The notes under the pieces are model-generated. The model did no database searches and was not told where the DNA came from. It saw nothing but the letters and a program-made list of their open reading frames with translations. Both the position numbers and the translations under genes were made by a program. A DNA stretch of 64,000 nt from a virus, in IMG/VR virus record IMGVR_UViG_3300046008_000291, positions 113,659-177,658 of that record. The stretch is one strand, 5' to 3'. Shown one piece after another: positions 13,112 through 34,292 of this stretch; the first letter of the stretch is position 1, and each line of letters starts with the position of its first letter.

Positions 13112-13160
13112 GTATACGGTAAATACAATAACTGTTAGTAGGATTGAAATAAATAAGTAT

Positions 13161-13835: not shown

Positions 13836-13848
13836 CTAGGATAATAAA

Positions 13849-17917: not shown

Positions 17918-18662
17918 AGGTGTTGTATTATTTGCTGTTAACACTGCCACAGTCGATTATGTTCGAATCGCTGAGCAGGCCGCACGTTTAATTAAACATA
18001 CTCTAAACTTACCTACTACCATTATCACAGATCCGGGCGTACCTAGTTTAAGTAACTATCGCACCGGCCATGCTGGCGGCACAGAATGGAAGAACGGTGG
18101 CAGATATCGTGCGTACGAACTTAGTCCCTATGATGAAACTATCTTACTTGACAGTGACTACCTACAGTTAGATACAAGTTTATTAACCATACTCGAAACC
18201 ACTGTCGATTATAAGTTAATGCACTACAACCAAAGCCCTCAACAGTCAATGTCGGGCAACATGGGTCAGTTAAGTTTAGATTATGTATGGGCCACTGCTA
18301 TAACATTTAAGCGTACAGATAAAACACAAATGTTATTTGATCTAGTTGGTCGTATCGAACGTAACTATGCTTACTATCAAAAACTATATCACTTAAGAGA
18401 ACGTAATTTCCGCAATGATTATGCGTTTGCCATTGCCAACAACATTATTAATGGGTACACTACTAACACTACACAAAGTATACCTTTTACCATGTTAACC
18501 TTGGATAAACTAATTAAAAACATTGAAATAACAGGCGAAAAGATGATTATACGCGAAGAAAATTCTGCACATGTCATTGCCCTGCAAAACATACACGTAA
18601 TGGATAAAGATTATTTGCTTAGTGAAAAGTTTGATCAATTGGTGGACACAGTATGCGCATAA
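17886..18662 (+). CDS. Glycosyltransferase-like protein (258 aa)
   Basis: Resembles GT-A fold transferases. A Rossmann-like N-terminus (VVLFAVNTATVDYVRIAE) is followed by a region ending in ETILLDSDYLQLD, where DSD at residues 89-91 fits the metal/nucleotide-sugar DxD motif. It would use a nucleotide sugar in the cytoplasm; neither donor nor acceptor is known. It overlaps the previous gene by 32 bp and the next by 10 bp. The following gene shows a similar layout with an ESD motif, so the two may be distant paralogues. Family assignment is inferred from motifs. Confidence 0.55.
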   Translation: MTKSDVPAKSKGVVLFAVNTATVDYVRIAEQAARLIKHTLNLPTTIITDPGVPSLSNYRTGHAGGTEWKNGGRYRAYELSPYDETILLDSDYLQLDTSLLTILETTVDYKLMHYNQSPQQSMSGNMGQLSLDYVWATAITFKRTDKTQMLFDLVGRIERNYAYYQKLYHLRERNFRNDYAFAIANNIINGYTTNTTQSIPFTMLTLDKLIKNIEITGEKMIIREENSAHVIALQNIHVMDKDYLLSEKFDQLVDTVCA

Positions 18663-19510
18663 CACCACATCAAGCACAGCAGGGGTTTATGACCATTGCG
18701 CAGAATACAGCAGAGGTTGATTACTTACAGCTTGCTTACGTACAAGCAATGAGTATTAAACTGACCATGCCTGGCAGTTCGTACGCAGTAGCAGTTGATA
18801 AGAATACACTTGAACAGGTAACAGAACAACATCGAAAGGTGTTTGATTATGTAGTTACTATTGACAATGACCTAGCCCAAGACGAAACTTGGAAGTTATC
18901 AAATGAATGGCAGGCATTTTATCTCACACCATTCAAAGAAACAATTAAACTCGAAAGTGACATTGTATTCACTAGAAGTATTGCGCATTGGTGGACTGCT
19001 TTTAGATTAAAGAATGTTGTACTAAGCACAGGATGTAGAGATTATCAGCAAGAGTTAAGCGCATCACGAGAATACAGAAAGTTATTCGACGATAATGAAT
19101 TGCCCGATACTTACAACGGGCTAATGTATTTTAGATACAGTCGTGAAGCCACTGAATTCTTTATGTTAGCAGAACAAATATTTAAAAATTGGGCCTATCT
19201 ACGTGACAACGTATTACTTAACTGTCGCGATGATAATCCTACTACCGATGTTGTTTATGCTCTAACTGCAAAGTTACTTGGTGTAGAAGATTGCACATTG
19301 CCCAGCTTAGATTTTATTAATTTTGTACATATGAAGCCGGCAATTAACGCATGGACCAGTACACCCTGGCCTGAGTTAGTTGTATGCGAAACAGACTTAC
19401 CAATGATACGTATTGCCAACACCAATCAATATCACCCCATACACTATCATGAAAAGTCCTGGGTAACACCTGAATTAATCAAGGAGTATGAACATGAACT
19501 CTTTAAGTGA
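18653..19510 (+). CDS. Glycosyltransferase-like protein (285 aa)
   Basis: Shares the layout of its upstream neighbour: MTIAQNTAEVDYLQLAYVQA at the N-terminus, then YVVTIDNDLA and LTPFKETIKLESDIVFTRS. ESD (residues 101-103) occupies the place of DSD in the neighbour, and DND (71-73) is a second acidic motif. It is probably a GT-A-type transferase or a relative that lost activity. There is no signal peptide. It overlaps both neighbours, and AAGGAG for the next gene lies within its 3' end. Confidence 0.5.
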   Translation: MRITPHQAQQGFMTIAQNTAEVDYLQLAYVQAMSIKLTMPGSSYAVAVDKNTLEQVTEQHRKVFDYVVTIDNDLAQDETWKLSNEWQAFYLTPFKETIKLESDIVFTRSIAHWWTAFRLKNVVLSTGCRDYQQELSASREYRKLFDDNELPDTYNGLMYFRYSREATEFFMLAEQIFKNWAYLRDNVLLNCRDDNPTTDVVYALTAKLLGVEDCTLPSLDFINFVHMKPAINAWTSTPWPELVVCETDLPMIRIANTNQYHPIHYHEKSWVTPELIKEYEHELFK

Positions 19511-19844
19511 ATTTGAAAAAGCATTGGCCATGCTCAAACCCATTGTAGAAGAAGTTAAAGAATATAGATTGCACTATGATGAACTTGGAATCATTACAAT
19601 GTGTACAATGATCAATCACCCAACGGATACTAACTATATTGTTGTTAGTCGAGATGAATATGACAACTATTTCCGTTATACAATTGTAGATAATAAGCTG
19701 AAAAAGATTGACAACAACCCTGGTTATCGTGTACAATTAGCTAGTAGTACCACTGGCTACGCCACAGTAAAGAAACATGCAGGAATACTAATAGAACCAA
19801 CTGACACCTATCAGGATATAGAATACTATGACACAAATCGTTGA
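19494..19844 (+). CDS. Hypothetical protein (116 aa)
   Basis: Not recognised. A helical N-terminus (SEFEKALAMLKPIVEEVKE) is followed by a beta-rich domain (TNYIVVSRDEYDNYFRYTIV). The start is placed at ATG 19494 because AAGGAG at 19481-19486 is 7 bp upstream; the ATG at 19488 is only 1 bp from it. It overlaps both neighbours, so it is part of the same operon. There are no cysteine motifs or membrane segments. Confidence 0.6.
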   Translation: MNSLSEFEKALAMLKPIVEEVKEYRLHYDELGIITMCTMINHPTDTNYIVVSRDEYDNYFRYTIVDNKLKKIDNNPGYRVQLASSTTGYATVKKHAGILIEPTDTYQDIEYYDTNR

Positions 19845-20724
19845 TATAGCAGATTTAGCCTGCATCTATCTAAGCTACGATGAACCTAAGAAAGAAGAAT
19901 TTTGGATCAAGATTCAAAACATGGTTCCGTGGGCTAAACGTGTAGATGGGGTTAAGGGCAGTGATGCTGCCCACAAAGCCGCGGCGGCTGCCAGCGACAC
20001 CGAACGCTTTGTATTAATAGATGGCGATAACTTGCCCGATCCAGAATTCTTCAACCTGCAACTTACACTGGATGATACCAATCGAGATGTAGTATTCCGT
20101 TGGAAGGCTCGTAATCACATCAACGGACTTATGTACGGCAATGGTGGCATGAGTTGTTGGACCAAGGACTTTGTCAACAACATGCGCACACACGAAGCCA
20201 GTGATGGTGCAGATGATACAGCTATCGAGTTTTGCTTTGACCCACGCTATTGGGCAATGAATGATTGCTACAGTACAACATACCCAAATCAAAGTTCATA
20301 TCAAGCCTGGCGAGCTGGATTCCGTGAAGGTGTTAAGATGTGCTTGGATCGTGGCACAAAGCCAAGCCTTGGTGAATTTGAGCGACGTGTACACGCACGC
20401 AACTATGATCACTTGAGCATATGGCACAATGTGGGCATGGATGTAGAGAATGGTGACTGGGCTATGTATGGTGCTAAACTAGGCACATATATGACCATGA
20501 TTACGGATTGGGACTACAGAGAAGTACAGGACTTTGATGCACTGAATCGTATCTGGGAGCAAAACAAAGTATTAAATCTAGTAGAAGAATGTAACGAAAT
20601 GTCACATACATTAAGTGTAAAATTAGGATTGCCTGCTCCGCATTTTACAGCGGCGCAGAGTAGATTTTTCAAACATCACTACAAGAGCGTATTTAAGAAC
20701 AAAGGTATAATGTCGAGAGAATGA
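19828..20724 (+). CDS. GT-A-like glycosyltransferase of a marine-phage family (298 aa)
   Basis: The N-terminus ACIYLSYDEPKKEEFWIKIQ, then AKRVDGVKGSDAAHKAA and FVLIDGDNLPDPEFF, with DGD at residues 65-67, is a family I recall as common in marine phages and often left unnamed or called glycosyltransferase. Later features are NGLMYGNGGMSCWTKDFV and QAWRAGFREGVKM. The same units recur, with the DGD lost, in the 802-aa protein at the end of this operon. It probably transfers a sugar from a nucleotide donor; donor and acceptor are unknown. It overlaps the genes on both sides. Confidence 0.6.
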   Translation: MTQIVDIADLACIYLSYDEPKKEEFWIKIQNMVPWAKRVDGVKGSDAAHKAAAAASDTERFVLIDGDNLPDPEFFNLQLTLDDTNRDVVFRWKARNHINGLMYGNGGMSCWTKDFVNNMRTHEASDGADDTAIEFCFDPRYWAMNDCYSTTYPNQSSYQAWRAGFREGVKMCLDRGTKPSLGEFERRVHARNYDHLSIWHNVGMDVENGDWAMYGAKLGTYMTMITDWDYREVQDFDALNRIWEQNKVLNLVEECNEMSHTLSVKLGLPAPHFTAAQSRFFKHHYKSVFKNKGIMSRE

Positions 20725-21593
20725 GATTACACGATACTAATTTAGTAAAGTATTTTTCATATATCCCAGAAGTTTGGCGAACTTATCCTGTTTATCCATA
20801 TAATTTCATTGATCGAAATTCAAATACATTAGTGGTTACCATTGGTGACAGCTGGACATTTGGTGCTGATATTTGTCTAGATGATTATGCAATGTCTCAG
20901 GAAAGATTAGACAAGATGTATGGAAACATCGTTGCATCTAACTTGGGTGCCGACTTCTTAAGCCTGGGACAGAGTGGTACTTGTAATTTATATATAATTA
21001 ATAAAATAACAGAATTAGACACCCTTATTCCGCAATTGGATTATACTAATATTATAATCATATGCACATTTACCGAAGCATGTCGAACATTCGATGGACC
21101 GTTTGACAAACACAACGATTATGTCACGTGGTTTAGTAACCAAACATTTGATTCAGTTGATAAGTTTGATTCTATTATAAAATATCATAATGGACTACAA
21201 CAGGATTCAATAGTTGAATTAGCTGCAAAATATCAACACGTTAAAGTAATAGTGGGTACTAACTTTGTTGATCCTATTGGCATGAATCCAGCTATAACAA
21301 TCTTATCTAAAAGTTGGCTGCAGGTATACAGCGAACAAATAATTAATCAAGAATATCTCGGTCATTGTTATATTATGTCGCATTGGGTATTGGACAAACT
21401 GCCCGGAATCATTACTGGATTTAAACCAGATATAGATCGAACTTTATTATTGCAGTGGATGTGTGGATTAACTGAATCAGCAATGACACGAAAACAATTA
21501 GTATCAGACTCCTGTTATTTTAGAGGAATCAATCATCCACTTGCTGAAGGTCATCGAGTATGGGCTGATTATCTATTAGAGCAACTGCAATGA
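20721..21593 (+). CDS. SGNH/GDSL-like hydrolase (290 aa), first of five
   Basis: Block I is VVTIGDSWTFGADI (Ser44), followed by SLGQSGTCN (Gly block) and IIIICTFTEACR (Asn-block position altered). The C-terminal NHPLAEGH (271-278) supplies His. These enzymes remove or transfer acyl groups from sugars and lipids. The usual block III Asn is not obvious. There is no signal peptide, so it acts in the infected cell or after lysis. It starts inside the stop of the glycosyltransferase gene (4-bp overlap) and ends overlapping the next transferase gene, which suggests action on the same glycan. Confidence 0.75.
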   Translation: MRLHDTNLVKYFSYIPEVWRTYPVYPYNFIDRNSNTLVVTIGDSWTFGADICLDDYAMSQERLDKMYGNIVASNLGADFLSLGQSGTCNLYIINKITELDTLIPQLDYTNIIIICTFTEACRTFDGPFDKHNDYVTWFSNQTFDSVDKFDSIIKYHNGLQQDSIVELAAKYQHVKVIVGTNFVDPIGMNPAITILSKSWLQVYSEQIINQEYLGHCYIMSHWVLDKLPGIITGFKPDIDRTLLLQWMCGLTESAMTRKQLVSDSCYFRGINHPLAEGHRVWADYLLEQLQ

Positions 21594-22555
21594 ATACGTA
21601 TACACTACAATTAGAAAATGATCAGTTGCACAATATTACTCCATTTATTAAATTCTGCCGTGATCACGAACATACAGATATTAAGTTAATTGTAAATCAA
21701 GAATCACATTGCTTGCAATTTTGTGGAGTGTATGCAATACTCGATTTATTTACATTTACCTCAGTTACTATTGTCACTGCTAATGCTGTTGAATGCCACG
21801 ATAGATATAGAATTGTTATTAATTGGGCATATTGGTTAAAACAATCTAGAAAATTTAAAACATCAAATGACTATACGTGGAATCAAACAAAAATATTTGG
21901 ATGTTTTTACGGAAGACCTAGTGCACCTCGGGTTGGCATTGCAGGCCATTTAGCGCAACATTATAATGACAAAAGTTTATTACAATTAAGATTTAATACA
22001 GACAGTGAAGATACACGCAAGTTGGTTGATATACAAAAACTATTTGCCTGGGATATAACTGGCGCAGCTAAATTAGATCAGTTGGTGCAAAATAAAGAAC
22101 AATATTTTCAACCTATACCTGCATACGAGTACACCACTGGTAGTTACGATTACAATAGTGATCTTAATAACCTATACAAAAATATTTTTGTAGATATTGT
22201 AGTCGAAGCTACAACTTTAGGTAATACATTTTATCCTACTGAAAAGATTGCACGTGCAATATTGTGTAGAAAACCTTTTATTGTCATGGCATCTAAATTT
22301 TATCTTGGCTATTTAAAACAAATAGGATTTAAAACGTTTGATGAATATTGGCCCGAGCTATATGATAACGCAGATGGTAAAGCACGATATCTTGCTATCT
22401 TAGAATTAATTGATCGTCTGGCAAAATTATCAACAGCAGAGTTGGTAGAGTTAAATATTAAAATGCAACACACTATAGAATATAATCGTCAGTTATTAAT
22501 AGCTCAACAATATAACAAGCAGGTTACAAGAATCATTCCGCATTATGAAAACTAA
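21590..22555 (+). CDS. GT10/fucosyltransferase-like glycosyltransferase (321 aa)
   Basis: The C-terminal half carries FVDIVVEATTL, FYPTEKIARAILCRKPFIV (TEK at 217-219) and GFKTFDEYWPELYDN. This pattern resembles the nucleotide-sugar-binding domain of GT10 alpha-1,3-fucosyltransferases and a phage family with the same motif. The N-terminal acceptor domain is not recognisable. It probably transfers fucose or another GDP-linked sugar, but the sugar is a guess. It overlaps the SGNH gene by 4 bp and the first radical-SAM gene by 11 bp. Confidence 0.6.
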   Translation: MNTYTLQLENDQLHNITPFIKFCRDHEHTDIKLIVNQESHCLQFCGVYAILDLFTFTSVTIVTANAVECHDRYRIVINWAYWLKQSRKFKTSNDYTWNQTKIFGCFYGRPSAPRVGIAGHLAQHYNDKSLLQLRFNTDSEDTRKLVDIQKLFAWDITGAAKLDQLVQNKEQYFQPIPAYEYTTGSYDYNSDLNNLYKNIFVDIVVEATTLGNTFYPTEKIARAILCRKPFIVMASKFYLGYLKQIGFKTFDEYWPELYDNADGKARYLAILELIDRLAKLSTAELVELNIKMQHTIEYNRQLLIAQQYNKQVTRIIPHYEN

Positions 22556-23939
22556 AAGCGACTTTATGTCAACGGCAGAAGAAATGAAGGACAAGTTAGG
22601 TCCTGCACTCTGCTTGGCTAAATGGCAACAGGTAAGTCTACACTTGCCTACAGGACTTACTAATAGTTGCTATCATCCACCGTTACATGAAATTGATAGT
22701 GCACCGCTAGTGTTTAACCCGGGTGCCTTACACAATACAGCACATAAAAAACAACAGCGTAAACTTATGTTAGAGCAACAACGTCCAACAGAATGTAGCT
22801 ACTGTTGGAGTGCAGAAGACAATAAGCAACTAAGTGATAGACACTATCGTAGTGGTGAGCCATGGGCAGCTGAACACTACGAAACTATAGTAAATGCACC
22901 TTGGGATCAAGACGTTGTACCAAGTTATGTTGAAGTAAACTTCAGTCACGGCTGTAACCTAGCCTGTAGCTATTGCAGTCCACAGTATAGTACAGAGTGG
23001 GGCAAAGATATTGACCGATGGGGAGCATATCCTACTAGCACTCCACACAATGCACCTGAACATTTTGAAGGCAGACGTAAGCCTATTCCTGTACGTGCGG
23101 AAAATCCCTATGTAGAAGCATTTTGGCGTTGGTGGCCAGAACTGTACGGCAGTTTAAAACACTTCCGTATGACGGGTGGCGAACCCCTGATGGATAAGAA
23201 TACGCATCGTGTGTTTGATTACATACTTGCCCTGCCTAAGAGTGATCTACACGTTGACGTAACCAGTAACTTTAGTGTGGATAGTAATCTGTTTAAGAAA
23301 TACATAGATAAAGTTAAGCAACTATGTGAAGGTGAACGCATTGAACATTTTATGCAGTATGTTAGCCTAGACACAGGCAACAGCGAGCATGCAGAATATA
23401 TTCGCGACGGTCTACATTATTTTAGATGTATGTCTTATGCGCATCAATTTCTAACTGACATTCCTTATCGCAATAGTCTAACGTTTATTATCACAATGAA
23501 TAATTTAAACATACTAGGATTGCGACAATTACTTGAATCGATATTAGAGATGCGTAAAAAATACAGTTCGACCTATCAACGTGTATGGTTTGATACACCG
23601 TTGTTACGCAGTCCAACATATCAAAGTTTACAAATATTACCAGCAAGTTATGTTCGCATATTAGAAGATGTTGTTACCTTTATGCGAGCAAATCAGGCAG
23701 ACGAAACAGCTGATAACTTCGAAGGCTTTAAAGATTATGAAATACAACGTATGGAACGTAATGTTGAATGGATGAAACAAGGTTGCGAACTTGCCGCAGA
23801 CTATGTTACAATACAAAGAGCAGACTTTTATAAGTTCTTCAATGAATACGATAAACGCAGAGGATTAATATTTTTGGAAACGTTCCCACAAATGAAAGAG
23901 TTTTGGCAGGAGTGCAAATATCATGCCGAAAATAGCTAA
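22545..23939 (+). CDS. Radical-SAM protein 1 with N-terminal cysteine (twitch-like) module (464 aa)
   Basis: Cys137, Cys141 and Cys144 form CX3CX2C (GCNLACSYC), the S-adenosylmethionine-binding 4Fe-4S site, and MTGGEPLMD is the GGEP motif. Before it lie Cys23, Cys42 and CX2C at 84/87, which fit an auxiliary cluster of twitch/SPASM type placed at the N-terminus rather than the usual C-terminus. The known phage family is named after that architecture; its substrate is not known. Related enzymes oxidise sugars (BtrN) or modify peptides. It is the first of five adjacent radical-SAM genes and closest to the second (same spacing of Cys pairs). ATG 22566 is an alternative start. Confidence 0.85.
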   Translation: MKTKSDFMSTAEEMKDKLGPALCLAKWQQVSLHLPTGLTNSCYHPPLHEIDSAPLVFNPGALHNTAHKKQQRKLMLEQQRPTECSYCWSAEDNKQLSDRHYRSGEPWAAEHYETIVNAPWDQDVVPSYVEVNFSHGCNLACSYCSPQYSTEWGKDIDRWGAYPTSTPHNAPEHFEGRRKPIPVRAENPYVEAFWRWWPELYGSLKHFRMTGGEPLMDKNTHRVFDYILALPKSDLHVDVTSNFSVDSNLFKKYIDKVKQLCEGERIEHFMQYVSLDTGNSEHAEYIRDGLHYFRCMSYAHQFLTDIPYRNSLTFIITMNNLNILGLRQLLESILEMRKKYSSTYQRVWFDTPLLRSPTYQSLQILPASYVRILEDVVTFMRANQADETADNFEGFKDYEIQRMERNVEWMKQGCELAADYVTIQRADFYKFFNEYDKRRGLIFLETFPQMKEFWQECKYHAENS

Positions 23940-25299
23940 CGAAACAGATTTAGAATATAAGCGCAGAGTAATTGACATTAAGTCAGAATCATTCTGCGCG
24001 GCTAAATGGTATAACGCTACTATATGGTTAGGGTCAGGACAGACTACCAGCTGTCATCACCCATTGCCGCATGCTATTGACCTAGAAGCAATTAAAACTA
24101 ATCCCAGTGCTATCCATAACACTCCGCAAAAGAAATTAGAGCGTAAACAGATGCAGGTAGGTGATCGTCCTAGCGGATGCGAATACTGCTGGAAGATTGA
24201 AGACATGTATAAAGATCCTAAGTATGATGGGGTTGATGTACCAACTCCTATTAGTGATCGTGTGTACAAAACTGTAATTTATAACGATGAGGATTTAAAC
24301 TATGCATACAATTTACCTTCGGATCAAGATGTTAACCTCCGGACTTTGGAAATCGCCTTTGACCGCACTTGTCAGTTTGCTTGTAGCTACTGTAACCCTG
24401 CATTTAGCACTACTTGGGTTAAAGACATTCGGAATAACGGTGCCTACACCGATTTGGTGTCGGATGGACGTAACCACTTTACTCATACTCATGATAGCAA
24501 TCAATTGTTTAAGCTCGATGAAGTTAATCCTTATGTCGAAGCGTTCTTCAAATGGTGGGAAACAGACCTGCACAAGACGTTAAAAGAACTGCGCATCACA
24601 GGTGGCGAACCGTTAATGTCAGGATACACCTGGCGTCTAATAGAATGGTTTCAAAAGAACAAAGGACAAAGTACTACACGTCTTGCTATCAATAGTAATT
24701 TAGGATTTGAGAAAGATAAATTAGAGAGGTTATTAGATGCTACACAAGGTATCGAATTGGATTTGTACACTAGCAATGAATCGTGGGGCCGTCATGCAAT
24801 GTATATACGTGATGGCTTGGATTGGGATCAATGGGTTAGCAATGTACAGTATCTATTGGATAGCAAGAAACTGCGAGGCCTACATGTTATGTGTACCATC
24901 AATGCTCTATGCTTACTAAGCCTTACTGATTTGTTATGGATGATAGTAAAACTTAAACGCACTTATGGCAAGGATGCAATTAACTTTAGTCTAAACATCT
25001 TACGATTCCCTAGTTTCCAAAGTCCGTTGATCTTGCCTATGGAGATACGTGAACAAATGGCCGAAGACCTACAACAATTTGGCGAAGCGGCACACAGTGA
25101 ACTACACGAATCTGAATATAATCAATTGACTAGATTGATTGAGTACTTACAGACTGTAGACAGCCCACACAGTGGAGCACTATCACGTGAGATTTTACAA
25201 CGTGACTTTAAGAACTTTTATCAGCAATACGACCAGCGGCGTGGTCTAGACTTTAAATATACATTTACACAATTAGCGGACTGGTACGACACACTATGA
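23923..25299 (+). CDS. Radical-SAM protein 2 with N-terminal cysteine module (458 aa)
   Basis: Cys150/154/157 (CQFACSYC) is the radical-SAM cluster site and RITGGEPLMSG the GGEP motif. The N-terminal Cys25, Cys44 and CX2C at 86/89 repeat the spacing of protein 1, as does the HNTPQKKLERKQM / HNTAHKKQQRKLM segment, so genes 1 and 2 arose by tandem duplication. The C-terminal FKNFYQQYDQRRGLDF block is also shared (FYKFFNEYDKRRGLIF in protein 1). Overlaps are 17 bp upstream and 4 bp downstream. Substrate unknown; cytoplasmic. Confidence 0.85.
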   Translation: MPKIANETDLEYKRRVIDIKSESFCAAKWYNATIWLGSGQTTSCHHPLPHAIDLEAIKTNPSAIHNTPQKKLERKQMQVGDRPSGCEYCWKIEDMYKDPKYDGVDVPTPISDRVYKTVIYNDEDLNYAYNLPSDQDVNLRTLEIAFDRTCQFACSYCNPAFSTTWVKDIRNNGAYTDLVSDGRNHFTHTHDSNQLFKLDEVNPYVEAFFKWWETDLHKTLKELRITGGEPLMSGYTWRLIEWFQKNKGQSTTRLAINSNLGFEKDKLERLLDATQGIELDLYTSNESWGRHAMYIRDGLDWDQWVSNVQYLLDSKKLRGLHVMCTINALCLLSLTDLLWMIVKLKRTYGKDAINFSLNILRFPSFQSPLILPMEIREQMAEDLQQFGEAAHSELHESEYNQLTRLIEYLQTVDSPHSGALSREILQRDFKNFYQQYDQRRGLDFKYTFTQLADWYDTL

Positions 25300-27854
25300 G
25301 CGATGAGCCAAGCAAGAAATTAACAGTACATCATAAAAATCACAATTACAATACTCGTAAACCTGTGTATATACATGAAGATGATTTAACAGAAGATCAT
25401 ACATATAAATTAATAGAAAGTAAACATTTCTGTATGATACCATGGACACACATGCACAGTATCCCTGACGGTCGTGCATACCCTTGCTGTCTGGGTGAAA
25501 TGCATTTGCCAATTGGCAACTTTAAAGAAAACACCATGGCCGAAGTATGGAACGGCACTCCATATAAACAGATGCGCATAAACATGCTTGAAGACAAGCC
25601 GAGTAAAGAATGTACTCGTTGTTACGAACAAGAAGACAACGGGTTCTTTAGTATGCGTAACAGTCAAAACAAAAACTTTGGCCATCATATTGCCCTGGCA
25701 GATAAAACTAATGCCGATGGCAGTTTAGATGACTTTAAACTACGCTACTATGACATACGCTTCTCTAATCTATGTAACTTCAGTTGCCGCACCTGCGGTA
25801 GCTTGTTCAGCAGCAGTTGGTTTGCGGAAGAAACTAAACTGTTTGGTAAATTAAATCATCCGCAAATTATGTTTTCTGGTAAAGATAAAAATGATATGTG
25901 GGAACAGATGCAGGAGCATATTCCGTACCTCGAACAGATATACTTTGCTGGTGGCGAACCACTGATCATGGAAGAACACTATCGCATCTTAGAAGAACTA
26001 GTGCGTCGTGAAATGTTCCATGTTAGACTAGTCTATAACACAAACTTTAGTCATATGCGTCTTAAAGATAAGATGGTATTTGAGTATTGGAAACTGTTTG
26101 ATGTGGTAAGTGTAGGTGCTAGTTTAGATGATTCATATCTTCGTGGAGAATACATTCGCAAGGGTCAAGACTGGGCAGAAACAGTAGAAAATCGTCGCAA
26201 AATGATTGAAATTTGCCCCAATGTTGACTTTTATGTTAGTAGTACAGTCAGTATACTCAATGCCTGGCATTTAACAGAATTCCATAAAGAATGGGTCGAG
26301 CTTGGCCTGATTAAAGCCAAGGATTGGAACGTAAACATTTTACAGAGTCCAGAGCGTGATCGTATTGACGTGTTGCCTATACAATTTAAAGATCGTATTA
26401 AGCAACGAGTCGAAGAACATATTGCATGGCTAGAACCACAGGATCAATTACAGCGAGCAGTGTCCGGTTATCGAGCTATTATCACATTTATGTATCAAGA
26501 TGATAAGAGTCATTTATTAAAAGAATTCTTTAAGGTCAATGATCAAACAGACGAGATGCGTAAGGAAACTTTTGAAGAAGTATTCCCTGAGTATCAAGAG
26601 TTGCGTGATCATTTAGGCATTAACAAGACGCATGATAATATCTGTATGTTACCCTGGGTTAGTATAGAAGCAAGTCCAGTGGGTACAGCTCGTCCATGTT
26701 GTCTAGCCAAAGACGAAATTACCAAGAGTGATGGTACTCCGTATAAACTTAGAGAAAGTTCATTGGCTGAGATTTATAATAGTGAATACATGCAGGACCT
26801 GCGCCAACAATTCCGCCGCGGTGAAAAACCAGCGACGTGTAATCGTTGTTGGAGTGAAGAAGATGCTGGTATAGTTAGTAAACGTATCAACAGTAGAATT
26901 AGACTTAAAGAGTTTTATCCTATTGTAGACTGGCGTAATGATACACCTGATCAACTATGGTTCATTGATCTTAAACTGGGTAATATTTGTAATCTTAAAT
27001 GTCGTATCTGCGGCAGTTGGAGCAGTAGTAAATGGGCCAAGGAAGAAATTGACTACGAAGCTATAAAATATAAAGACGTGGAAGGATATGACCGTAAGCA
27101 ACACGGAGCATACATGTTCCTACAAGAAGGTACGTGGCCCAGAGACAATGATATATTTTGGGATAACTTAAAAGCACTACTGCCAAACATTAAGTATTTT
27201 GAATTCACTGGTGGTGAACCATTCTTAATTGAAGAACACTTTAAACTATTGCGTTATGCAGTGGAGCACGGTTACAGTAGTCGTATTGATATACATTACA
27301 ATACCAACGGCACTGTGTATCCTAACGATGAAGAAGTTGCCCTATGGAGTAAATTTAGAAATGTTGAAATTGCAGTTAGCATTGACAACACCGAAGCACG
27401 TTTTGAATATGAACGTTATGGCGCAGTGTGGGAAGAAGTAACAGCCAATGTTGTGAAATTTAATGCCATGCGCACTGATTTAATTGCCACACAGGTCTGC
27501 ATGACTGTGAACATACAAAATGTTTATTATCTACCTGAACTATGTGATTGGGTCAATACCCAGGATTTTGACATGGTGCATTTTAATATGCTACATGACC
27601 CACATGTTATGTGTATTAACCGTATGACACCTGCGGCGCAACGATTAGTTATAGATCGATTAACTGCTTATCCATTCACAGTTAAACATCGTGTTGAGAT
27701 CGATAAAATAATTCAGTTTATTGAAAACGGCTCGGGCAGTGATGGCACTGAATTCCTACGTAAGATGCAGGAAACTGATCAATACCGTAATCAAAGCATG
27801 TTAACCACACATAGAGAAATTGCACTAGCAATGGGATATCATGACACCATCTAA
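25296..27854 (+). CDS. Double radical-SAM protein: two complete twitch-like/radical-SAM units in one chain (852 aa)
   Basis: Unit A has Cys46, Cys64/65 (PCC), CX2C 106/109, the radical-SAM site CX3CX2C at 160/164/167 and AGGEP at 218-222. Unit B has Cys450, Cys468/469 (PCC), CX2C 515/518, radical-SAM site 565/569/572 and TGGEP at 638-642. Both begin with a C-(M)-x-PW motif (FCMIPWTHMHS, ICMLPWVSIEAS) and share LAEIYN / MAEVWN before the CX2C. All predicted cluster ligands are kept in both halves, so two active sites are expected. Fusion may fix a 1:1 ratio or pass an intermediate. Substrate unknown. No frameshift seen between halves. Confidence 0.85.
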   Translation: MSDEPSKKLTVHHKNHNYNTRKPVYIHEDDLTEDHTYKLIESKHFCMIPWTHMHSIPDGRAYPCCLGEMHLPIGNFKENTMAEVWNGTPYKQMRINMLEDKPSKECTRCYEQEDNGFFSMRNSQNKNFGHHIALADKTNADGSLDDFKLRYYDIRFSNLCNFSCRTCGSLFSSSWFAEETKLFGKLNHPQIMFSGKDKNDMWEQMQEHIPYLEQIYFAGGEPLIMEEHYRILEELVRREMFHVRLVYNTNFSHMRLKDKMVFEYWKLFDVVSVGASLDDSYLRGEYIRKGQDWAETVENRRKMIEICPNVDFYVSSTVSILNAWHLTEFHKEWVELGLIKAKDWNVNILQSPERDRIDVLPIQFKDRIKQRVEEHIAWLEPQDQLQRAVSGYRAIITFMYQDDKSHLLKEFFKVNDQTDEMRKETFEEVFPEYQELRDHLGINKTHDNICMLPWVSIEASPVGTARPCCLAKDEITKSDGTPYKLRESSLAEIYNSEYMQDLRQQFRRGEKPATCNRCWSEEDAGIVSKRINSRIRLKEFYPIVDWRNDTPDQLWFIDLKLGNICNLKCRICGSWSSSKWAKEEIDYEAIKYKDVEGYDRKQHGAYMFLQEGTWPRDNDIFWDNLKALLPNIKYFEFTGGEPFLIEEHFKLLRYAVEHGYSSRIDIHYNTNGTVYPNDEEVALWSKFRNVEIAVSIDNTEARFEYERYGAVWEEVTANVVKFNAMRTDLIATQVCMTVNIQNVYYLPELCDWVNTQDFDMVHFNMLHDPHVMCINRMTPAAQRLVIDRLTAYPFTVKHRVEIDKIIQFIENGSGSDGTEFLRKMQETDQYRNQSMLTTHREIALAMGYHDTI

Positions 27855-28926
27855 TACATTTTGTTCAGCACCATGGATGAATAGGTATATTAATCCTATC
27901 GGTGAAATGTCACCTTGTTGTTTTACTACTAATATTGAAACTGAAGCAGACATAGCAGGTCTTAAACAATCATTTATAGACGGAGAACAAGCCCTAGCTT
28001 GTAAGTATTGCTGGCATAACGAACAGCATGCGATGCCTAGCCCAAGACTTGATTTCAATGCCGCCGCTGGTGGTAAACTATCATTTGATGACGATGTATA
28101 TTCTACGGCAGAAGTTAATCAGTTGTCGATTAACATAGGCAATTATTGTAATGCCGAATGTATCATATGTAATGGTATGTCTAGTAGCAAACGAAATAAT
28201 TGGTTAAAGCATCATAATAGTAAATTTCATAAAATTCATACTATACAACGTGCTAACGATAACATTGATGATTTACCGTACTTGAACATCAAGACGCTGA
28301 CTTTGCTCGGTGGCGAACCGACTATACATCCATCTACTTATAAAATTTTAGATTACTATATTAATAAAGGAATCTCAAAAAATATTTCTATTAGTCTAAA
28401 TACAAATGCAAGTAAATTAGATCCGAGTCTATTAGATAAATTAAAATTATTTGACATCCTGTCGATTACCCTGAGCATAGACGGCACCGGGTCATATTTT
28501 GAATATCAGAGAAGACCAATTAAATGGAAAATTGCAAAACAGGTAGCCGAACAATGGATGACTGCCGCCGACAATATTGTAATAAATTATGTTGTCACAG
28601 CAGTTAGTATATGGGGCTTTAATGAATTTCTCACATGGTTTTCTACATTGCCACAGTATGTATTAGATAAAAAACCTACGGTAATTTTAACTCCTGTGGG
28701 AAATAATCCTTGTTTATCACTAGCTGTATTAAACGACGAACAACGAACTAATTGGATTGATCAAGCAACTGATCACCCACTTAAACAACAGATAATTAAT
28801 ATCATTAACTCTACGGTATATGATAAATCATTGTTACCTCAACTAGCTGACAAAGTCAAACTTGAAGATACCACGTCGAAAATAAAATTTGCAGATATAT
28901 TCCCCAATTGGGATTTAAATGGATAA
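27841..28926 (+). CDS. Radical-SAM protein 4 with N-terminal cysteine module (361 aa)
   Basis: Cys103/107/110 (CNAECIIC) is the radical-SAM site and LGGEPTIHP the GGEP motif. The N-terminal module is shorter: Cys8 in CSAPWMNRYI, Cys26/27 (PCC) and CX2C 54/57. The whole protein is about 70-100 residues shorter than proteins 1, 2 and 5, mostly between the CX2C and the SAM domain. It overlaps the double radical-SAM gene by 14 bp and the next gene by 8 bp. The PW and PCC features group it with the double protein and protein 5. Function unknown beyond radical chemistry. Confidence 0.85.
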   Translation: MTPSNTFCSAPWMNRYINPIGEMSPCCFTTNIETEADIAGLKQSFIDGEQALACKYCWHNEQHAMPSPRLDFNAAAGGKLSFDDDVYSTAEVNQLSINIGNYCNAECIICNGMSSSKRNNWLKHHNSKFHKIHTIQRANDNIDDLPYLNIKTLTLLGGEPTIHPSTYKILDYYINKGISKNISISLNTNASKLDPSLLDKLKLFDILSITLSIDGTGSYFEYQRRPIKWKIAKQVAEQWMTAADNIVINYVVTAVSIWGFNEFLTWFSTLPQYVLDKKPTVILTPVGNNPCLSLAVLNDEQRTNWIDQATDHPLKQQIINIINSTVYDKSLLPQLADKVKLEDTTSKIKFADIFPNWDLNG

Positions 28927-30208
28927 ACCGCAAACACTTTGTCTAGCACCTTGGGTACATACATATCTTAGTCCGCAGACTGAGCGACGTATGTGTTGTG
29001 CTAGTCGCGAGCCTGCGCAGAACTTTGAACAGTATATAGATACCAAGGCCGGCACTGGTAAGTATATTCCTATTACACTTGAAGAACATTGGAATAGCGA
29101 GCACATGAAGTCAGTGCGCCAGCGTATGATGGCAGGTGAAACACTACCTGAGTGCGAAGTGTGCAATGACAAATTGTTAAACACATCCGTTTACCGTAGT
29201 TATTTTGATAGCATGTTTGGTCATAAGTATGATAGTATATGGGACACAACAGACGCAGACGGTGCTACCACAATGCGCCCAGTCAGTTGGGATTATCGAT
29301 TTAGCAATCTATGTAACTTCAAGTGTCGTATGTGCGGTGATATGTTGTCTAGCGCATGGGAAACTGAACAGAGACAACACAACATGATCAACTGGAGTAA
29401 TCCAAAGAATAATTGGATGCTACCAGAAATAAGAGATCAAATATCAGCATTCCAAGACAATCAAATTGAAAAAGAGTTTGCTGAAGCTGTTGAAAATCAT
29501 CAAGTAGAAGAAGTATATTGGGTAGGTGGAGAGCCACTAATGTATGAACAACATTGGCGTTATATGCGACGCATTGTTGAATTAGGAGATGGTAAAAATG
29601 TCTATGCTCGTTACAACACAAACCTCAGCCGTGTCACTTACCGTGGGGCCAATCTGTATACTGATATTCTTAGTGGGCTACGTGATTGGCAGATATGTGC
29701 AAGTCTTGATGGTACGCAAGAAATTGGAGAATATATTAGAACAGGACTTGACTATAATTCATGGCTTACAAACTTCCGTGAAGGAGTTAGAATTGCAAGT
29801 CACAGACGCCAAATGCGAATTGACTTCACTCTCACACTGCCCGGCATGTTTGAAGTCACAAACATTACCCAGCTTGCTGAAAAAGAAAACGTAGATATCT
29901 TGGCTAAGGTTGTTTTTAGCTTTAGCCCTGATATTATCCTTAGTCCACTTGCACTCCCACGCGAGTTATTACATCCATGGTTAGATGAGCTAATCCCACA
30001 AACTTCTGGAGCAATGCAGGATATACTTGTGCAGTTAAAATCACGACCAACGTTTGACGAGCAATGGCCCGATATATACAAAGTAAGTCTTGCAGAGGGC
30101 AAGGCTCGTGTGCTACGACTAGAAAGTATACGTAATGATACACTTACACTAGCAGACATATTAAAAGAGAGACCGGCTGTATATGAATGGTACCAAAACA
30201 TTGCTTGA
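28919..30208 (+). CDS. Radical-SAM protein 5 with N-terminal cysteine module (429 aa)
   Basis: Cys132/136/139 (CNFKCRMC) is the radical-SAM site and VGGEPLMYE the GGEP motif. Cys8 in CLAPWVHTYLS, Cys26/27 and CX2C 79/82 make the N-terminal auxiliary module. The RFSNLCNF segment and the EYIRTGLDY segment are nearly the same as in unit A of the double protein (RFSNLCNF, EYIRKGQDW), so they are close paralogues. It is the last of the radical-SAM run and overlaps the next gene by 26 bp. Substrate unknown. Confidence 0.85.
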   Translation: MDKPQTLCLAPWVHTYLSPQTERRMCCASREPAQNFEQYIDTKAGTGKYIPITLEEHWNSEHMKSVRQRMMAGETLPECEVCNDKLLNTSVYRSYFDSMFGHKYDSIWDTTDADGATTMRPVSWDYRFSNLCNFKCRMCGDMLSSAWETEQRQHNMINWSNPKNNWMLPEIRDQISAFQDNQIEKEFAEAVENHQVEEVYWVGGEPLMYEQHWRYMRRIVELGDGKNVYARYNTNLSRVTYRGANLYTDILSGLRDWQICASLDGTQEIGEYIRTGLDYNSWLTNFREGVRIASHRRQMRIDFTLTLPGMFEVTNITQLAEKENVDILAKVVFSFSPDIILSPLALPRELLHPWLDELIPQTSGAMQDILVQLKSRPTFDEQWPDIYKVSLAEGKARVLRLESIRNDTLTLADILKERPAVYEWYQNIA

Positions 30209-31283
30209 TCAACTTGAAATTGATCTAAAGAATGATGCAACAGGAGAATTACTGACAGTATATATTGATGTATTTGACAGTTCGCTCGGCCGTAAATGGT
30301 TATCGGCATTAAACAATCTAATAGAAAAGAACTATCACCTTGAGAAGAATTTTTGTTTTCATGGATTTGTTGAATCTGAACGTAATGCAGAATATATAAC
30401 TGATCAAATTAATCAATCAATTGCAGCAATTAATCAGGCAAATCTCGGCTATCATATCAACGATCATTTCACGGTGGCTAATACCATAGTGCCGGGAGAG
30501 ATTGGCGAATTTCTCGAAGGCGGAAAACTAGTACACGATAAATTAAATCAACTACATAGATATTTCGAAGATCTGCAGGGAGTTAGCGGTCACATGTCGG
30601 GTTATTACAATCAAGCTGATGACAGTACAAAATGGCATATCCGACAGTTAAATTTATTATGTCACGAATACGAATCTCTAGTACTAAGCATGCGCAAAGC
30701 TGTGCATGCACCCGAATGGCGTCGTCCTAGTCAATTGATGTGTTGGTTAAATGCACCACGCTTTGTATTAGACGCGGACGATTTTGAATTATTTGGAATT
30801 GAAAGTTTAAATCGTCCGGCTGGCGGCGTATTTGTAGGAGTTAATAAAGCTATTGGCAAACATCATTATGAAGTCTTTCGTGATGAAGGCGGTGCAGGCC
30901 ATAGGATTGATGAATTGACTACATCAGCAATGCGCTCGCAAACAGAAGCAGCAGGTGATTTTGATATTGAATGGGCAATTAGTCCGGGCCAGTACGATTG
31001 GATGAAAAAAGAATTAGCAGATTTTACTCAATGGTTAATAGACAATGGATTCGACCCCGACGATAAATCATTAACTATAGGACACCCACAGGTAGGACAG
31101 GTTGATCTACAGCGAACATTCGGATCACAAGACCATAATGTAATATGGTCACAACTGGGCCTACATCTAAACGTATATAAGTTGAGAACTAGTCAAGCGT
31201 CTGCCATTTATGAATATAATTGGTCAGATTCTGATTATCGAGATCAACAGATACTACAGATTAAACGAGGACAAATAGCCTAA
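30183..31283 (+). CDS. Hypothetical protein following the radical-SAM run (366 aa)
   Basis: Not recognised, although I believe related proteins occur in other marine phages. It is soluble, with a helical middle (residues about 110-185, including HDKLNQLHRYFEDLQG and NLLCHEYESLVLSMRKA) and a C-terminal third rich in Asp, Trp and Gln. There is no metal-binding Cys cluster, P-loop or signal peptide. Its start lies within the end of radical-SAM gene 5 (26-bp overlap) and its stop touches the SGNH gene. This conserved coupling suggests a partner or scaffold for those enzymes; that is inference only. Confidence 0.6.
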   Translation: MNGTKTLLDQLEIDLKNDATGELLTVYIDVFDSSLGRKWLSALNNLIEKNYHLEKNFCFHGFVESERNAEYITDQINQSIAAINQANLGYHINDHFTVANTIVPGEIGEFLEGGKLVHDKLNQLHRYFEDLQGVSGHMSGYYNQADDSTKWHIRQLNLLCHEYESLVLSMRKAVHAPEWRRPSQLMCWLNAPRFVLDADDFELFGIESLNRPAGGVFVGVNKAIGKHHYEVFRDEGGAGHRIDELTTSAMRSQTEAAGDFDIEWAISPGQYDWMKKELADFTQWLIDNGFDPDDKSLTIGHPQVGQVDLQRTFGSQDHNVIWSQLGLHLNVYKLRTSQASAIYEYNWSDSDYRDQQILQIKRGQIA

Positions 31284-32101
31284 TGATTTTATTATCCGGC
31301 GGCGATAGTTTTACCTATGGTAGTGAACTTGCTGATGGAGTGTCGCCACATGACCCTAACGGTACAGAACCAGCATACCCGATTGTCAGTCAGAGTACTT
31401 TTCCTGCACTACTAGCTCGAGACTTTGGTATGCACTATGAATGTGCAGCCTACCCGGGATTTAGTAACAGTGCAATTCGACGTACTGTAATGAATAGCTG
31501 TGAAAGTCTGTTAGACGTAGGGTTGGTAATAGTAACATGGACATTTCCTGGTAGATACGAATTTAGATTTGATTATAACACAGGAGAACGATGGGGTAAC
31601 TGGTATAATTTAAACCCTTGGTCTATAATAGATAATGTAGAAGACATAAAAAAAGAATTTAAAACTGATAATACAACAATATTACAACATCATACTAATC
31701 ATTTGCTACGAGCCAAACAAACAGGCACAGCAGATTTTGCTAAAACATTTTACAAACATGTTGGTTCAACTGCCTATTGGGAAACATACAATTCACTAGT
31801 AGAAATAATTATGTTACAGCAATACCTACAGTTAAAAAAGATACCATATATATTTTCCATGGTTGATGAAGCATTGTTAAATAACTGTACATATCTAATG
31901 AATGATGAAAATATAATAACATTGTATAATCAACTTGATTTCGATCGATGGGCAACCTTTCCGAATAATCAAGGATTTTTTACATGGGCTCGAGATTTTA
32001 AATATCCATTTGCCACAACTCATCCATTAGAACCAGCGCACATTGATGCTGCAAAGTATATTCGGGAGAACTACAATGAATTGGTTAAAGACTTTATATA
32101 A
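31283..32101 (+). CDS. SGNH/GDSL-like hydrolase (272 aa), second of five
   Basis: Block I is LLSGGDSFTYGSEL with Ser9 as nucleophile, followed by AYPGFSNSAIRR (Gly/Asn block) and VIVTWTFPGRYEF. The C-terminal THPLEPAHIDAAKY gives the His (His247 or His253). Probably a cytoplasmic esterase or acyltransferase acting on a glycan. Its neighbour two genes on is another SGNH protein of the same phage type. A 33-residue gene starts within its 3' end. Confidence 0.75.
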   Translation: MILLSGGDSFTYGSELADGVSPHDPNGTEPAYPIVSQSTFPALLARDFGMHYECAAYPGFSNSAIRRTVMNSCESLLDVGLVIVTWTFPGRYEFRFDYNTGERWGNWYNLNPWSIIDNVEDIKKEFKTDNTTILQHHTNHLLRAKQTGTADFAKTFYKHVGSTAYWETYNSLVEIIMLQQYLQLKKIPYIFSMVDEALLNNCTYLMNDENIITLYNQLDFDRWATFPNNQGFFTWARDFKYPFATTHPLEPAHIDAAKYIRENYNELVKDFI

Positions 32102-32177
32102 CAGAATTAAATTAGAAATAACTTATCGTAAAAAATTAAAAGCATTACGTAAGCGTGATCCATTTATCTATAAGTAA
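32076..32177 (+). CDS. Very small basic protein (33 aa)
   Basis: ATG 32076 to TAA 32177 encodes MNWLKTLYNRIK, then KLKALRKRDPFIYK at the C-terminus. GGGAG at 32064-32068 is 7 bp upstream, and the stop overlaps the next ATG (TAATG). It overlaps the SGNH gene by 26 bp. Strongly basic and probably a single helix with an aromatic start. I recall short phage proteins ending in a similar RKRDPFIYK, which supports a real gene. Function unknown; a nucleic-acid, membrane-surface or enzyme-partner role is possible. Confidence 0.7.
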   Translation: MNWLKTLYNRIKLEITYRKKLKALRKRDPFIYK

Positions 32178-32827
32178 TGCGAATATTAACCATTGGCGAT
32201 AGCTTTACCTACGGCGATGAACTAGTTGATATTCAGCAGGCATGGCCGTATGTATTACAAAATAAGTTATCCTGTGAGTTAACAAATTTAGGAAAGCCTG
32301 CTACAGGTAATACCAGCATGGTTCGAAATGTAGTAGAACATGCTAGAGATTATGATTTAATTATCGTCGCCTGGAGTCATTTTGCCCGTATTGAATTTGC
32401 CGACGAGCATGGCATTTTTGATACATGGCCCGGACATCGTGGCGTGGCGTTTACTAATAATATTGCATATAGAATGGAGTTGTTAAATTATATAAATCGT
32501 CACCACAACGATGAATATTTGTATAAACAATATCTATTGAATATAATTTTATTACAAACTTATGCAGATCACCTAGGCAAAAAATTGCTTATGCTTAATA
32601 CGCAGATTAATTGGAATAAACTATCAGAAGATTCATACATGGAAAAGTTTGCATCTACGATTAATCGAATCGATACTCAATATTTTATTGGATGGCCAAA
32701 TGAATCGATGATGGAGTGGACATTTGGCACTCCCAAAGGACCAAACGGTCACTTTTTAGCAGCAGGACATACAATAGTAGCGGATAAAATTTATGAATAT
32801 ATTAGGCATCTCGGCTGGGTTTCATGA
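32177..32827 (+). CDS. SGNH/GDSL-like hydrolase (216 aa), third of five
   Basis: Block I is MRILTIGDSFTYGDEL (Ser9), the Gly/Asn block is LGKPATGNTSM, and IIVAWSHFARIEF follows. The C-terminal GHFLAAGH (191-198) carries the catalytic His candidates. It is shorter than the gene before it but has the same order of blocks. It begins at the stop of the 33-aa gene and overlaps the carbamoyltransferase gene by 35 bp. This overlap suggests the acyl chemistry and carbamoylation act on one substrate (inference). Confidence 0.75.
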   Translation: MRILTIGDSFTYGDELVDIQQAWPYVLQNKLSCELTNLGKPATGNTSMVRNVVEHARDYDLIIVAWSHFARIEFADEHGIFDTWPGHRGVAFTNNIAYRMELLNYINRHHNDEYLYKQYLLNIILLQTYADHLGKKLLMLNTQINWNKLSEDSYMEKFASTINRIDTQYFIGWPNESMMEWTFGTPKGPNGHFLAAGHTIVADKIYEYIRHLGWVS

Positions 32828-34292
32828 CGCAGCTGTAACAGTCATTCAAAATGACGAAATTGTATTTGCTGGGCATAGTGAACGCTACAGCAAAATTAAA
32901 CATGACCCAAACTTATGTTCAAGTTTACTAGCAGATGCAATTTTAGAATCGGGTGCATATCCACATCAAATAGCCTACTATGAAAGACCTTGGGTTAAGA
33001 AGACACGTCAACTCTACGCTGGCCAATACAGTGAGCTAACCAAAGGCTGGAGTGTACGCAATATGATTTCCAAGGCTGCACCGTGGTTCAATCATCGAGA
33101 CATTCCACTTAAAACATACAATCATCATTTAAGTCATGCGGCCGCAGGCTTTCAAACAAGTCCGTTTGACAATGCAACAGTTGTGGTAATTGATGCTATC
33201 GGTGAGTGGGACACTATTAGTATTTGGACAGCAAAGTATGTCAATGGTAAGGCACAATATACAAGAGTATGGCGCCAATTATACCCACACAGTATCGGCT
33301 TGATGTACAGTGCGTTTACCAAAGAAGTTGGACTTAAACCCTTAGACGAAGAATACATTCTAATGGGCATGGCTGGTTGGGCACAAAAAAATACAGGACG
33401 ATTGAGTGACGAACTTTCTAATTGGTTAGTTGATCACGAGTTTGATCTGACATTAAAACACAATCTACATATCGGCCTGCCCGAGAATGACATGCGAGCT
33501 CGCTGGAACGACTTCGAAATTGCCGCGGCAGCTCAGACATTAGCGGAACAATTGATACATAATATTATGTACAAGGCAATGAAGTTAGCACCTAACCGTA
33601 ATTTAGTATATGCTGGTGGCGTTGCTCTTAATTGTAGTGCTAATAGAGACTTGGGAGAATACTTTGATGAAATATGGATTATGCCTAATCCTGGTGATGC
33701 TGGTAGCAGCCTTGGAGCGGCGGCCTTGGCACACGGGGGTCGACTTAATTGGAATAATGCTTTTCTTGGCCATAATATTAGTGGCCCTTATCCTGTCACC
33801 GATGTTGTCTCCGAATTAATGACCAATAAGATCGTTGGTGTTGCTAGCGGTCGTGCAGAATTTGGACCAAGAGCATTGGGTAATCGTAGCCTATTGGCGG
33901 ACCCGCGCGGTCATGATATTAAAGATCGAGTTAACTTAATTAAACATAGACAAAAGTTTAGACCTTTTGCTCCTATCATACTTGAAGAATTCGCCGATGA
34001 ATATTTTGAAATGCCCAACGGCTTTGCCACAAGCAGATATATGCAGACAACTGCAAAATGCTTGCGTCCTGATGAATTTCCTGCTATAATACATGTTGAT
34101 GGTACAAGTCGAGTACAGACTGTTCCACGAGATGGCAGTGGTATACGTGAACTATTATGCTTATGGTATACTTGGACGGGTTGCCCGATGTTGCTTAATA
34201 CAAGTTTAAACATCAGAGGCGAGCCCATGGTAAATGATCGCGCTGACGCAGATCGCTTTGAAGAATTATACGGAGTTCGTGTTTTATCATGA
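32793..34292 (+). CDS. Carbamoyltransferase, NodU/CmcH/TobZ family (499 aa)
   Basis: MNILGISAGFHDAAV starts the Kae1-like domain, with HHLSH at 111-115 (metal/carbamoyl-adenylate site) and AGGVALN at 274-280. The C-terminal YrdC-like part has FGPRALGNRSLLADPRG at 357-373. Family members make carbamoyl-AMP from carbamoyl phosphate and ATP, then carbamoylate a sugar or antibiotic hydroxyl. At 499 residues it is somewhat shorter than the usual 560-600. In this operon the likely acceptor is the sugar made by the neighbouring transferases and radical-SAM enzymes. Confident in family, not in substrate. Confidence 0.9.
   Translation: MNILGISAGFHDAAVTVIQNDEIVFAGHSERYSKIKHDPNLCSSLLADAILESGAYPHQIAYYERPWVKKTRQLYAGQYSELTKGWSVRNMISKAAPWFNHRDIPLKTYNHHLSHAAAGFQTSPFDNATVVVIDAIGEWDTISIWTAKYVNGKAQYTRVWRQLYPHSIGLMYSAFTKEVGLKPLDEEYILMGMAGWAQKNTGRLSDELSNWLVDHEFDLTLKHNLHIGLPENDMRARWNDFEIAAAAQTLAEQLIHNIMYKAMKLAPNRNLVYAGGVALNCSANRDLGEYFDEIWIMPNPGDAGSSLGAAALAHGGRLNWNNAFLGHNISGPYPVTDVVSELMTNKIVGVASGRAEFGPRALGNRSLLADPRGHDIKDRVNLIKHRQKFRPFAPIILEEFADEYFEMPNGFATSRYMQTTAKCLRPDEFPAIIHVDGTSRVQTVPRDGSGIRELLCLWYTWTGCPMLLNTSLNIRGEPMVNDRADADRFEELYGVRVLS

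Follow-up and report, generated by a model that had tools for sequence, protein, structure and literature searches.

Why would a phage maintain a row of radical S-adenosylmethionine (SAM) enzymes next to its glycosyltransferase genes? The question is raised by the IMG/VR virus record IMGVR_UViG_3300046008_000291 (177,658 bases), of which positions 113659–177658 were analyzed, a stretch of 64,000 nucleotides referred to here as the window. Five consecutive genes on the + strand (22545–30208), overlapping at every junction, encode six radical-SAM domains, named R1, R2, R3a and R3b (the two halves of one protein), R5, and R6. Each carries an N-terminal four-cysteine module, and this layout, described in a first-pass annotation, was confirmed by the open reading frames, the family profile, and a map of the cysteines. 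In a lineage of largely uncultured phages, a GT8-like and then a GT-A-like glycosyltransferase gene are repeatedly followed by R1-R2-R3a-R3b-R6. The phage itself is large, uncultured, and water-dwelling; its packaging terminase shares 54–55% identity with those of PA5oct-type Pseudomonas jumbo phages, and T4-like phages are also matched widely.

When each domain was searched against profiles, all six were assigned to a single family, NF033640 (N_Twi_rSAM, NCBIfam), with scores of 199.8 to 391.6 bits over model positions ~1–398, the cut-off being 170 bits for the whole protein over the model. Pfam Radical_SAM is matched above its cut-off by R1, R2, R3b (8.1e-9), R5, and R6 and slightly below it by R3a (28.2 vs. 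29.5), and Pfam SPASM is above its cut-off in R3a (1.1e-12, residues 46–110) and R3b (2.7e-7). The CX3CX2C and GGE motifs of the radical-SAM superfamily, whose fold is a partial TIM barrel, were found in all six domains. In domain numbering, the cysteines are C23, C42, C84xxC87, and C137x3Cx2C in R1 (GGEP at 211) and C46, C64/65, C106xxC, and C160x3Cx2C in R3a (GGEP at 219), and those of the module are C25, C44, and C86xxC in R2; C14, C33, and C79xxC in R3b; C8, C27, and C54xxC in R5; and C8, C27, and C79xxC in R6. An AlphaFold2 model of R3a (predicted local distance difference test, pLDDT, 83.6; predicted template modeling score 0.83) matched BlsE, viperin, MoaA, SuiB, and AnSME in Foldseek. 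Among the viral domains sampled, CX3CX2C, the auxiliary CxxC, the Cys at 64/65, and GGE are kept in 342/342, and C46 is kept in 339/339 having a residue there. Judged by these residues, all six sites are intact, as the first-pass annotation had stated, and no apparently dead copy occurs among the 342 viral domains.

The twitch/SPASM signature (C-x9-15-G-x4-C ... CxxC, then CX3CX2C) is present in R1, R2, R3a, R3b, and R5, and R6 departs from it by the G alone; it occurred in 0/6,840 shuffled domains. A profile of R3-type orthologues searched against the PDB matched BtrN (E = 1.7e-8), with profile positions 8–81, at the N-terminus, aligned to residues 184–258 of the BtrN chain, its C-terminal twitch, and with the C...PC...CxxC ligand cysteines in register. 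The profile alignment indicates that the N-terminal module is homologous to the C-terminal twitch domain of BtrN, in agreement with its earlier description as twitch-type. In BtrN, four cysteines supply all ligands of the auxiliary [4Fe-4S] cluster, and this cluster is the probable acceptor of the substrate electron (PMC9012708, PMC6231123). Since these cysteines are aligned in the phage enzymes, the latter may plausibly also have an auxiliary cluster with a complete set of ligands and carry out a two-electron oxidation. The earlier remark that BtrN-like twitch enzymes oxidize sugars is roughly right, the BtrN substrate being the aminocyclitol 2-deoxy-scyllo-inosamine (PMC9012708).

The resemblance to BtrN does not extend to domain order, and the radical-SAM core aligns weakly. 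In the solved enzymes BtrN, MoaA, SkfB, AnSME, PqqE, SuiB, and CteB, the twitch or SPASM module is C-terminal (PMC6231123), whereas it precedes the radical-SAM domain in all six phage domains. No common cysteine pattern was found C-terminal to GGEP in the six domains, so a C-terminal twitch is absent. In the SkfB structure, the C-terminal twitch strand packs beside barrel strand 1 (PMC6231123), so that relocation to the N-terminus would probably pose little structural difficulty. The atypical placement noted in the first-pass annotation is thus borne out with respect to the solved enzymes, but the order had not gone unrecognized: NF033640, which carries no function, is already defined on it, and the six domains, by passing its cut-off, fall into a catalogued architecture. 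They fit the family over essentially the whole model but differ from the bacterial members fetched in number, as the latter are mostly single per locus and the phage loci contain between five and eleven in ordered sets.

The most conserved partner of the radical-SAM genes is G, a gene for a GT-A-like glycosyltransferase that precedes them in relatives; in the window it is the third gene before R1, and in several relatives it adjoins R1. G is present in at least 576 IMG/VR contigs and in 0 of 50,697 GenBank phage records. Genes in the related loci were called by a simple open-reading-frame caller. At least one radical-SAM domain was found in 72 of the 80 best G loci. Counts of radical-SAM domains are minimum values, since another 17 Radical_SAM proteins occur among the supposed non-radical-SAM neighbors. 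Of the eight loci lacking one, five stop less than 2 kb after G, two (L082 and L085) stop inside the G match, and L093 extends 3.1 kb further.

In a tree of 453 domains, R1, R2, R3a, R3b, and R6 fall into separate clades. The R1 clade spans 84 loci, nearly all viral, and the R2 clade is almost wholly viral (70 viral members), with 38 viral members in the R6 clade and 4 in that of R5. R5 is missing from L017–L020 and L022–L025 and is an accessory domain, absent from most relatives, and in L024 and L025 R3a has a gene of its own. The exact order G-R1-R2-R3a-R3b-R6 is found in 26 loci, and the pairwise order is similarly biased (R1 before R2, 72:3; R2 before R3a, 65:7; R3b before R6, 35:4). The ratio of nonsynonymous to synonymous substitution rates (dN/dS) is 0.035–0.131 for the radical-SAM genes (R1, 0.065–0.10; R2, 0.064–0.13; R6, 0.065–0.13) and 0.028–0.088 for G, values that are approximate since dS is mostly above 0.8 but that reflect strong constraint. 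By these results, all domains but R5 behave as a single set whose members are maintained separately and in order, as would fit a multi-step pathway of the kind proposed earlier for the whole cluster; R5 stands apart as accessory.

A set of this kind could also consist of independent paralogues with unrelated substrates that have accumulated in a hypervariable region. Pelagimyophages have a hypervariable host-recognition region that gains radical-SAM cassettes (PMC7029224), and within the present lineage L027–L030 have 9–11 radical-SAM domains in other orders, with other genes inserted between. However, the single order shared by five separate clades across 26 complete loci, strong purifying selection, and 0 dead copies among 342 domains make such an accumulation very unlikely.

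The genes surrounding the cluster (Table 1) agree with the glycan-related neighborhood of the first-pass annotation by virtue of the carbamoyltransferase, epimerase, and DegT genes, the GT-A fold of G, and the glycogenin match. The G model (pLDDT 75.7) matched, among the Foldseek matches listed, nearly only GT-A glycosyltransferases or nucleotidyltransferases, SunS being the best (E = 1.8e-3). The family profile of the GT8-like gene matches glycogenin-1 (E = 1e-5) and 18 other glycogenin sequences; this profile and that of the adjoining DSD-motif protein each match 80/80 G loci, although the two may cross-hit. The 258-aa DSD protein family had no match among PDB sequences, and u had no match of note in Pfam or the PDB. 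The protein F matched a fucosyltransferase weakly in the PDB (E = 0.55); genes for its relatives alternate with radical-SAM genes, and L026 encodes a fusion of the F domain and a radical-SAM domain (leave-one-out E = 2.9e-17). Also within the related cassette of L026 is a radical-SAM protein of 756 aa that has a B12-binding domain (12307–14574).

Table 1. Features of the radical-SAM cluster and its surroundings in the window.
Feature	Position	Strand	Length	Evidence or remark
Probable GT-A protein with DSD motif	17886..18662	+		Adjoins GT8 gene; conserved SPYDETLLLDxDY motif
GT8-like (glycogenin-like) glycosyltransferase, core	18653..19510	+	285 aa	Family profile
G, GT-A-like glycosyltransferase, most conserved partner	19828..20724	+		Foldseek; DGDN motif
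SGNH-hydrolase-like protein, weak	20721..21593	+		GDSW motif alone; no Pfam match
F, possible fucosyltransferase-like glycosyltransferase	21590..22555	+		TEK...PFIV motif family
R1, N-terminal-twitch radical-SAM, core	22545..23939	+	464 aa	NF033640 273.5 bits
R2, N-terminal-twitch radical-SAM, core	23923..25299	+	458 aa	NF033640 286.2 bits
R3, two-domain protein (R3a + R3b)	25296-27854	+	852 aa	
R3a, first domain of R3, core	25296..26603	+		NF033640 391.6 bits
R3b, second domain of R3, core	26604..27854	+		NF033640 334.8 bits
R5, N-terminal-twitch radical-SAM, accessory	27841..28926	+	361 aa	NF033640 199.8 bits
R6, N-terminal-twitch radical-SAM, core	28919..30208	+	429 aa	NF033640 285.7 bits
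u, directly after R6	30183..31283	+		Conserved in many relatives
SGNH-hydrolase-like protein, weak	31283..32101	+		GGDSFTYG motif; no informative Pfam match
SGNH/DUF6071-like protein	32177..32827	+		DUF6071 E = 1.1e-3, Lipase_GDSL_2 E = 0.049, both below cut-off
NodU/CmcH-type O-carbamoyltransferase	32793..34292	+		Pfam Carbam_trans_C 3.2e-47, Carbam_trans_N 1.7e-39
Protein with G-like C-terminal part, DXD motif degenerate	35095..37503	+	802 aa	Translation read by eye
Epimerase	37463-38449	-		Pfam Epimerase 4.9e-38
DegT aminotransferase	38446-39504	-		Pfam DegT 8.7e-56
DegT aminotransferase	40995-42050	-		Pfam DegT 1.2e-88

In the relatives, the 141 interleaved or nearby downstream genes include, by family matches, six carbamoyltransferases, five nucleotide-sugar epimerases, three DegT aminotransferases, two FkbM methyltransferases, two hexapeptide transferases, and one UDP-sugar dehydrogenase. 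The 118 upstream genes match solely the tail-fiber-type families Peptidase_G2 (seven times), Collagen, Peptidase_S74, and Gly_rich_2. The cassette sits directly after tail-fiber-type genes.

Given this glycan context and position, we consider it somewhat probable that the genes form a glycan-tailoring cassette in a host-recognition region, a coordinated glycan pathway with a role in recognizing the host or in excluding superinfection; most likely it gives either the host cell or the phage tail an unusual coat of sugar. The GT8-like, GT-A-like, and F-family glycosyltransferases would assemble or transfer a sugar, on which R1, R2, R3a, R3b, R6, and optionally R5 would perform one radical step each. 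In such a step, a 5′-deoxyadenosyl radical would abstract a hydrogen atom and the fully ligated auxiliary [4Fe-4S] cluster would take up an electron, as in the dehydrogenation proposed for BtrN, although the outcome may instead be epimerization or deoxygenation. The carbamoyltransferase, the SGNH-like proteins, and the nucleotide-sugar genes may decorate or supply the sugar. The product would most likely be placed on an outer-membrane glycan of the infected cell, where it would change the receptor and exclude competing phages; in the main variant of this scheme, it would decorate the tail fibers of the phage itself. We infer the chemistry, the substrate, the place of display, and the benefit from the gene set and its setting.

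Several observations weigh against a glycan pathway. No substrate, transporter, or acceptor was identified, and a flavodoxin to reduce the clusters was searched for in the record and not found. The GT-A assignment of G comes from a medium-confidence model with a best E of 1.8e-3, and those of the SGNH-like proteins and of F are weak. Of the 80 wider loci, many of which end early, three show the carbamoyltransferase. Among 111 neighbors of bacterial N_Twi_rSAM genes, there are two GT2 and two carbamoyltransferase genes, no clear glycan enrichment, so the chemistry of the family need not be on sugars.

The strongest competitor is that the target of the radical-SAM enzymes is a protein or peptide, such as the tail fibers encoded just upstream, modified by epimerization, cross-linking, or glycosylation-coupled chemistry. 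Peptides are the substrates of many characterized SPASM/twitch enzymes (SkfB, SuiB, CteB, and AnSME; PMC6231123), the top fold match of G, SunS, is a peptide S-glycosyltransferase, glycogenin, which the GT8-like gene resembles, glycosylates a protein, and the cassette lies directly 3′ of tail-fiber-type genes. However, matches to NCBIfam peptide maturases are weak beside NF033640, nucleotide-sugar genes are interleaved, and nothing like a small precursor gene was noticed among these tightly overlapping genes, where no dedicated search for a precursor or RRE was made. Overall, peptide modification appears unlikely, although it deserves to be kept in view.

The genes downstream bear on hypermodification of phage DNA bases. 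Some thymidine-hypermodification pathways use radical-SAM enzymes, and a small P-loop kinase and a dCMP deaminase are encoded downstream of the cassette. However, the canonical FLGVPFNIASY motif is present in the only thymidylate-synthase homologue, PF12851 (TET/JBP) matched nothing in the record, although it gave no signal with the control either, and the cassette tracks tail-fiber-type rather than replication genes. A role in DNA modification is therefore highly improbable.

Clustered radical-SAM genes have been described in T4-like phages since 2010 (PMC2853527, PMC5332604, PMC7029224). The virulent T4-like Campylobacter phages CP220 and CPt10 encode 11–12 radical-SAM proteins and have a module of five radical-SAM genes beside nucleotide-sugar-transferase-like genes (PMC2853527). 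CP220 was rejected as the same system because the proteins tested fall outside N_Twi_rSAM, with 13 bits as the best score against the local profile; the two scanned with NF033640 score at most 30.7 bits, the translations of the CP220/CPt10 proteins have extra cysteines at the C-terminal end, and an amidinotransferase accompanies the module. Pelagimyophages have radical-SAM cassettes, glycosyltransferases, and tail fibers in one hypervariable region (PMC7029224), and a T4-like environmental genome of 183 kb has 12 radical-SAM genes (PMC5332604); the available parts of these two papers describe neither an ordered N-terminal-twitch core nor its wider spread. What is new is the system, an ordered cassette of glycosyltransferase and radical-SAM genes, whereas the N-terminal-twitch family itself was already named. 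No description of the ordered cassette was found in the literature searched, in which subscription journals were thinly covered.

Another alternative is auxiliary metabolism, in which the infected cell would be supported by cofactor or host-metabolite enzymes, a role proposed for T4-like phages rich in Fe-S proteins. T4-like genomes with an A-type carrier and 12 radical-SAM genes have been reported (PMC5332604), and a metabolic advantage was suggested for CP220 (PMC2853527). In the present record, however, searches for an A-type carrier and FeS_assembly_P found neither, and the linkage to tail-fiber-type and glycosyltransferase genes and the specialized paralogues in fixed order make this explanation quite unlikely.

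A looser version of the cassette occurs in a cultured phage. In the island VPK566_0302-0314 of Vibrio phage K566, with the same matches in K567, glycosyltransferase-like genes are interspersed among four N_Twi-like radical-SAM genes (one WbbM-like glycosyltransferase, E = 0.0038, and another gene reading like a glycosyltransferase), next to pagP. The island differs in that two of the four radical-SAM proteins are below the family cut-off and that G, F, and u were not found there; VPK566_0307 had no phmmer match in the PDB. In the available text of PMC12028318, the island is an anti-defense island swapped in at the emergence of K566 and K567, with glycosyltransferase and lipid A functions, and that portion of the account does not mention radical-SAM enzymes. 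The existence of these cultured phages makes the question testable now.

Radical-SAM enzymes are oxygen-sensitive and costly in iron-sulfur cluster supply, yet five intact ordered copies have been kept, which implies that the lineage must gain from their product. If that product is a glycan, the cassette would be an unusually elaborate phage pathway of surface chemistry and would provide a function for a large uncharacterized enzyme family. More tentatively, and possible rather than probable, an abundant uncultured aquatic lineage may use an assembly line of at least five N-terminal-auxiliary-cluster radical enzymes to make a previously unseen sugar for host recognition or exclusion.

Radical-SAM genes also occur outside the cluster. 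A seventh N_Twi_rSAM protein is encoded outside the window at record position 100372-101508(-), and Pfam Radical_SAM matches nine places across the record, two of these below cut-off. Near this seventh copy (L014, 100309-101625(-)) are sulfotransferase-like (Sulfotransfer_3 E = 2e-5, below cut-off), SbcD-like, and SGNH-like genes. Several adjacent N_Twi_rSAM-matching proteins of 670–1008 aa occur in L123 and L171 (Elusimicrobia metagenome-assembled genome bin-0981), an apparently more elaborate arrangement than the phage set. The contigs L113, L157, and L178, binned to Pelagibacter, Rickettsiales, and Gammaproteobacteria, have the G/radical-SAM arrangement and a phage-like look. In L009, a 539-aa protein (6678-8294(-)) with no PHROG match shares ~49–53% identity with proteins of unannotated phage records, many of them human-faecal. 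Elsewhere in the window, the 802-aa protein has no Pfam match and 28% identity over 475 columns to L026 5548-6891; read by eye, it seemingly contains G-related repeats that have lost the DXD motif. A single open reading frame of more than 4,300 aa occupies positions 173-13111, and its residues 1–941 match the virion structural family phrog_10938 (E = 3e-61).

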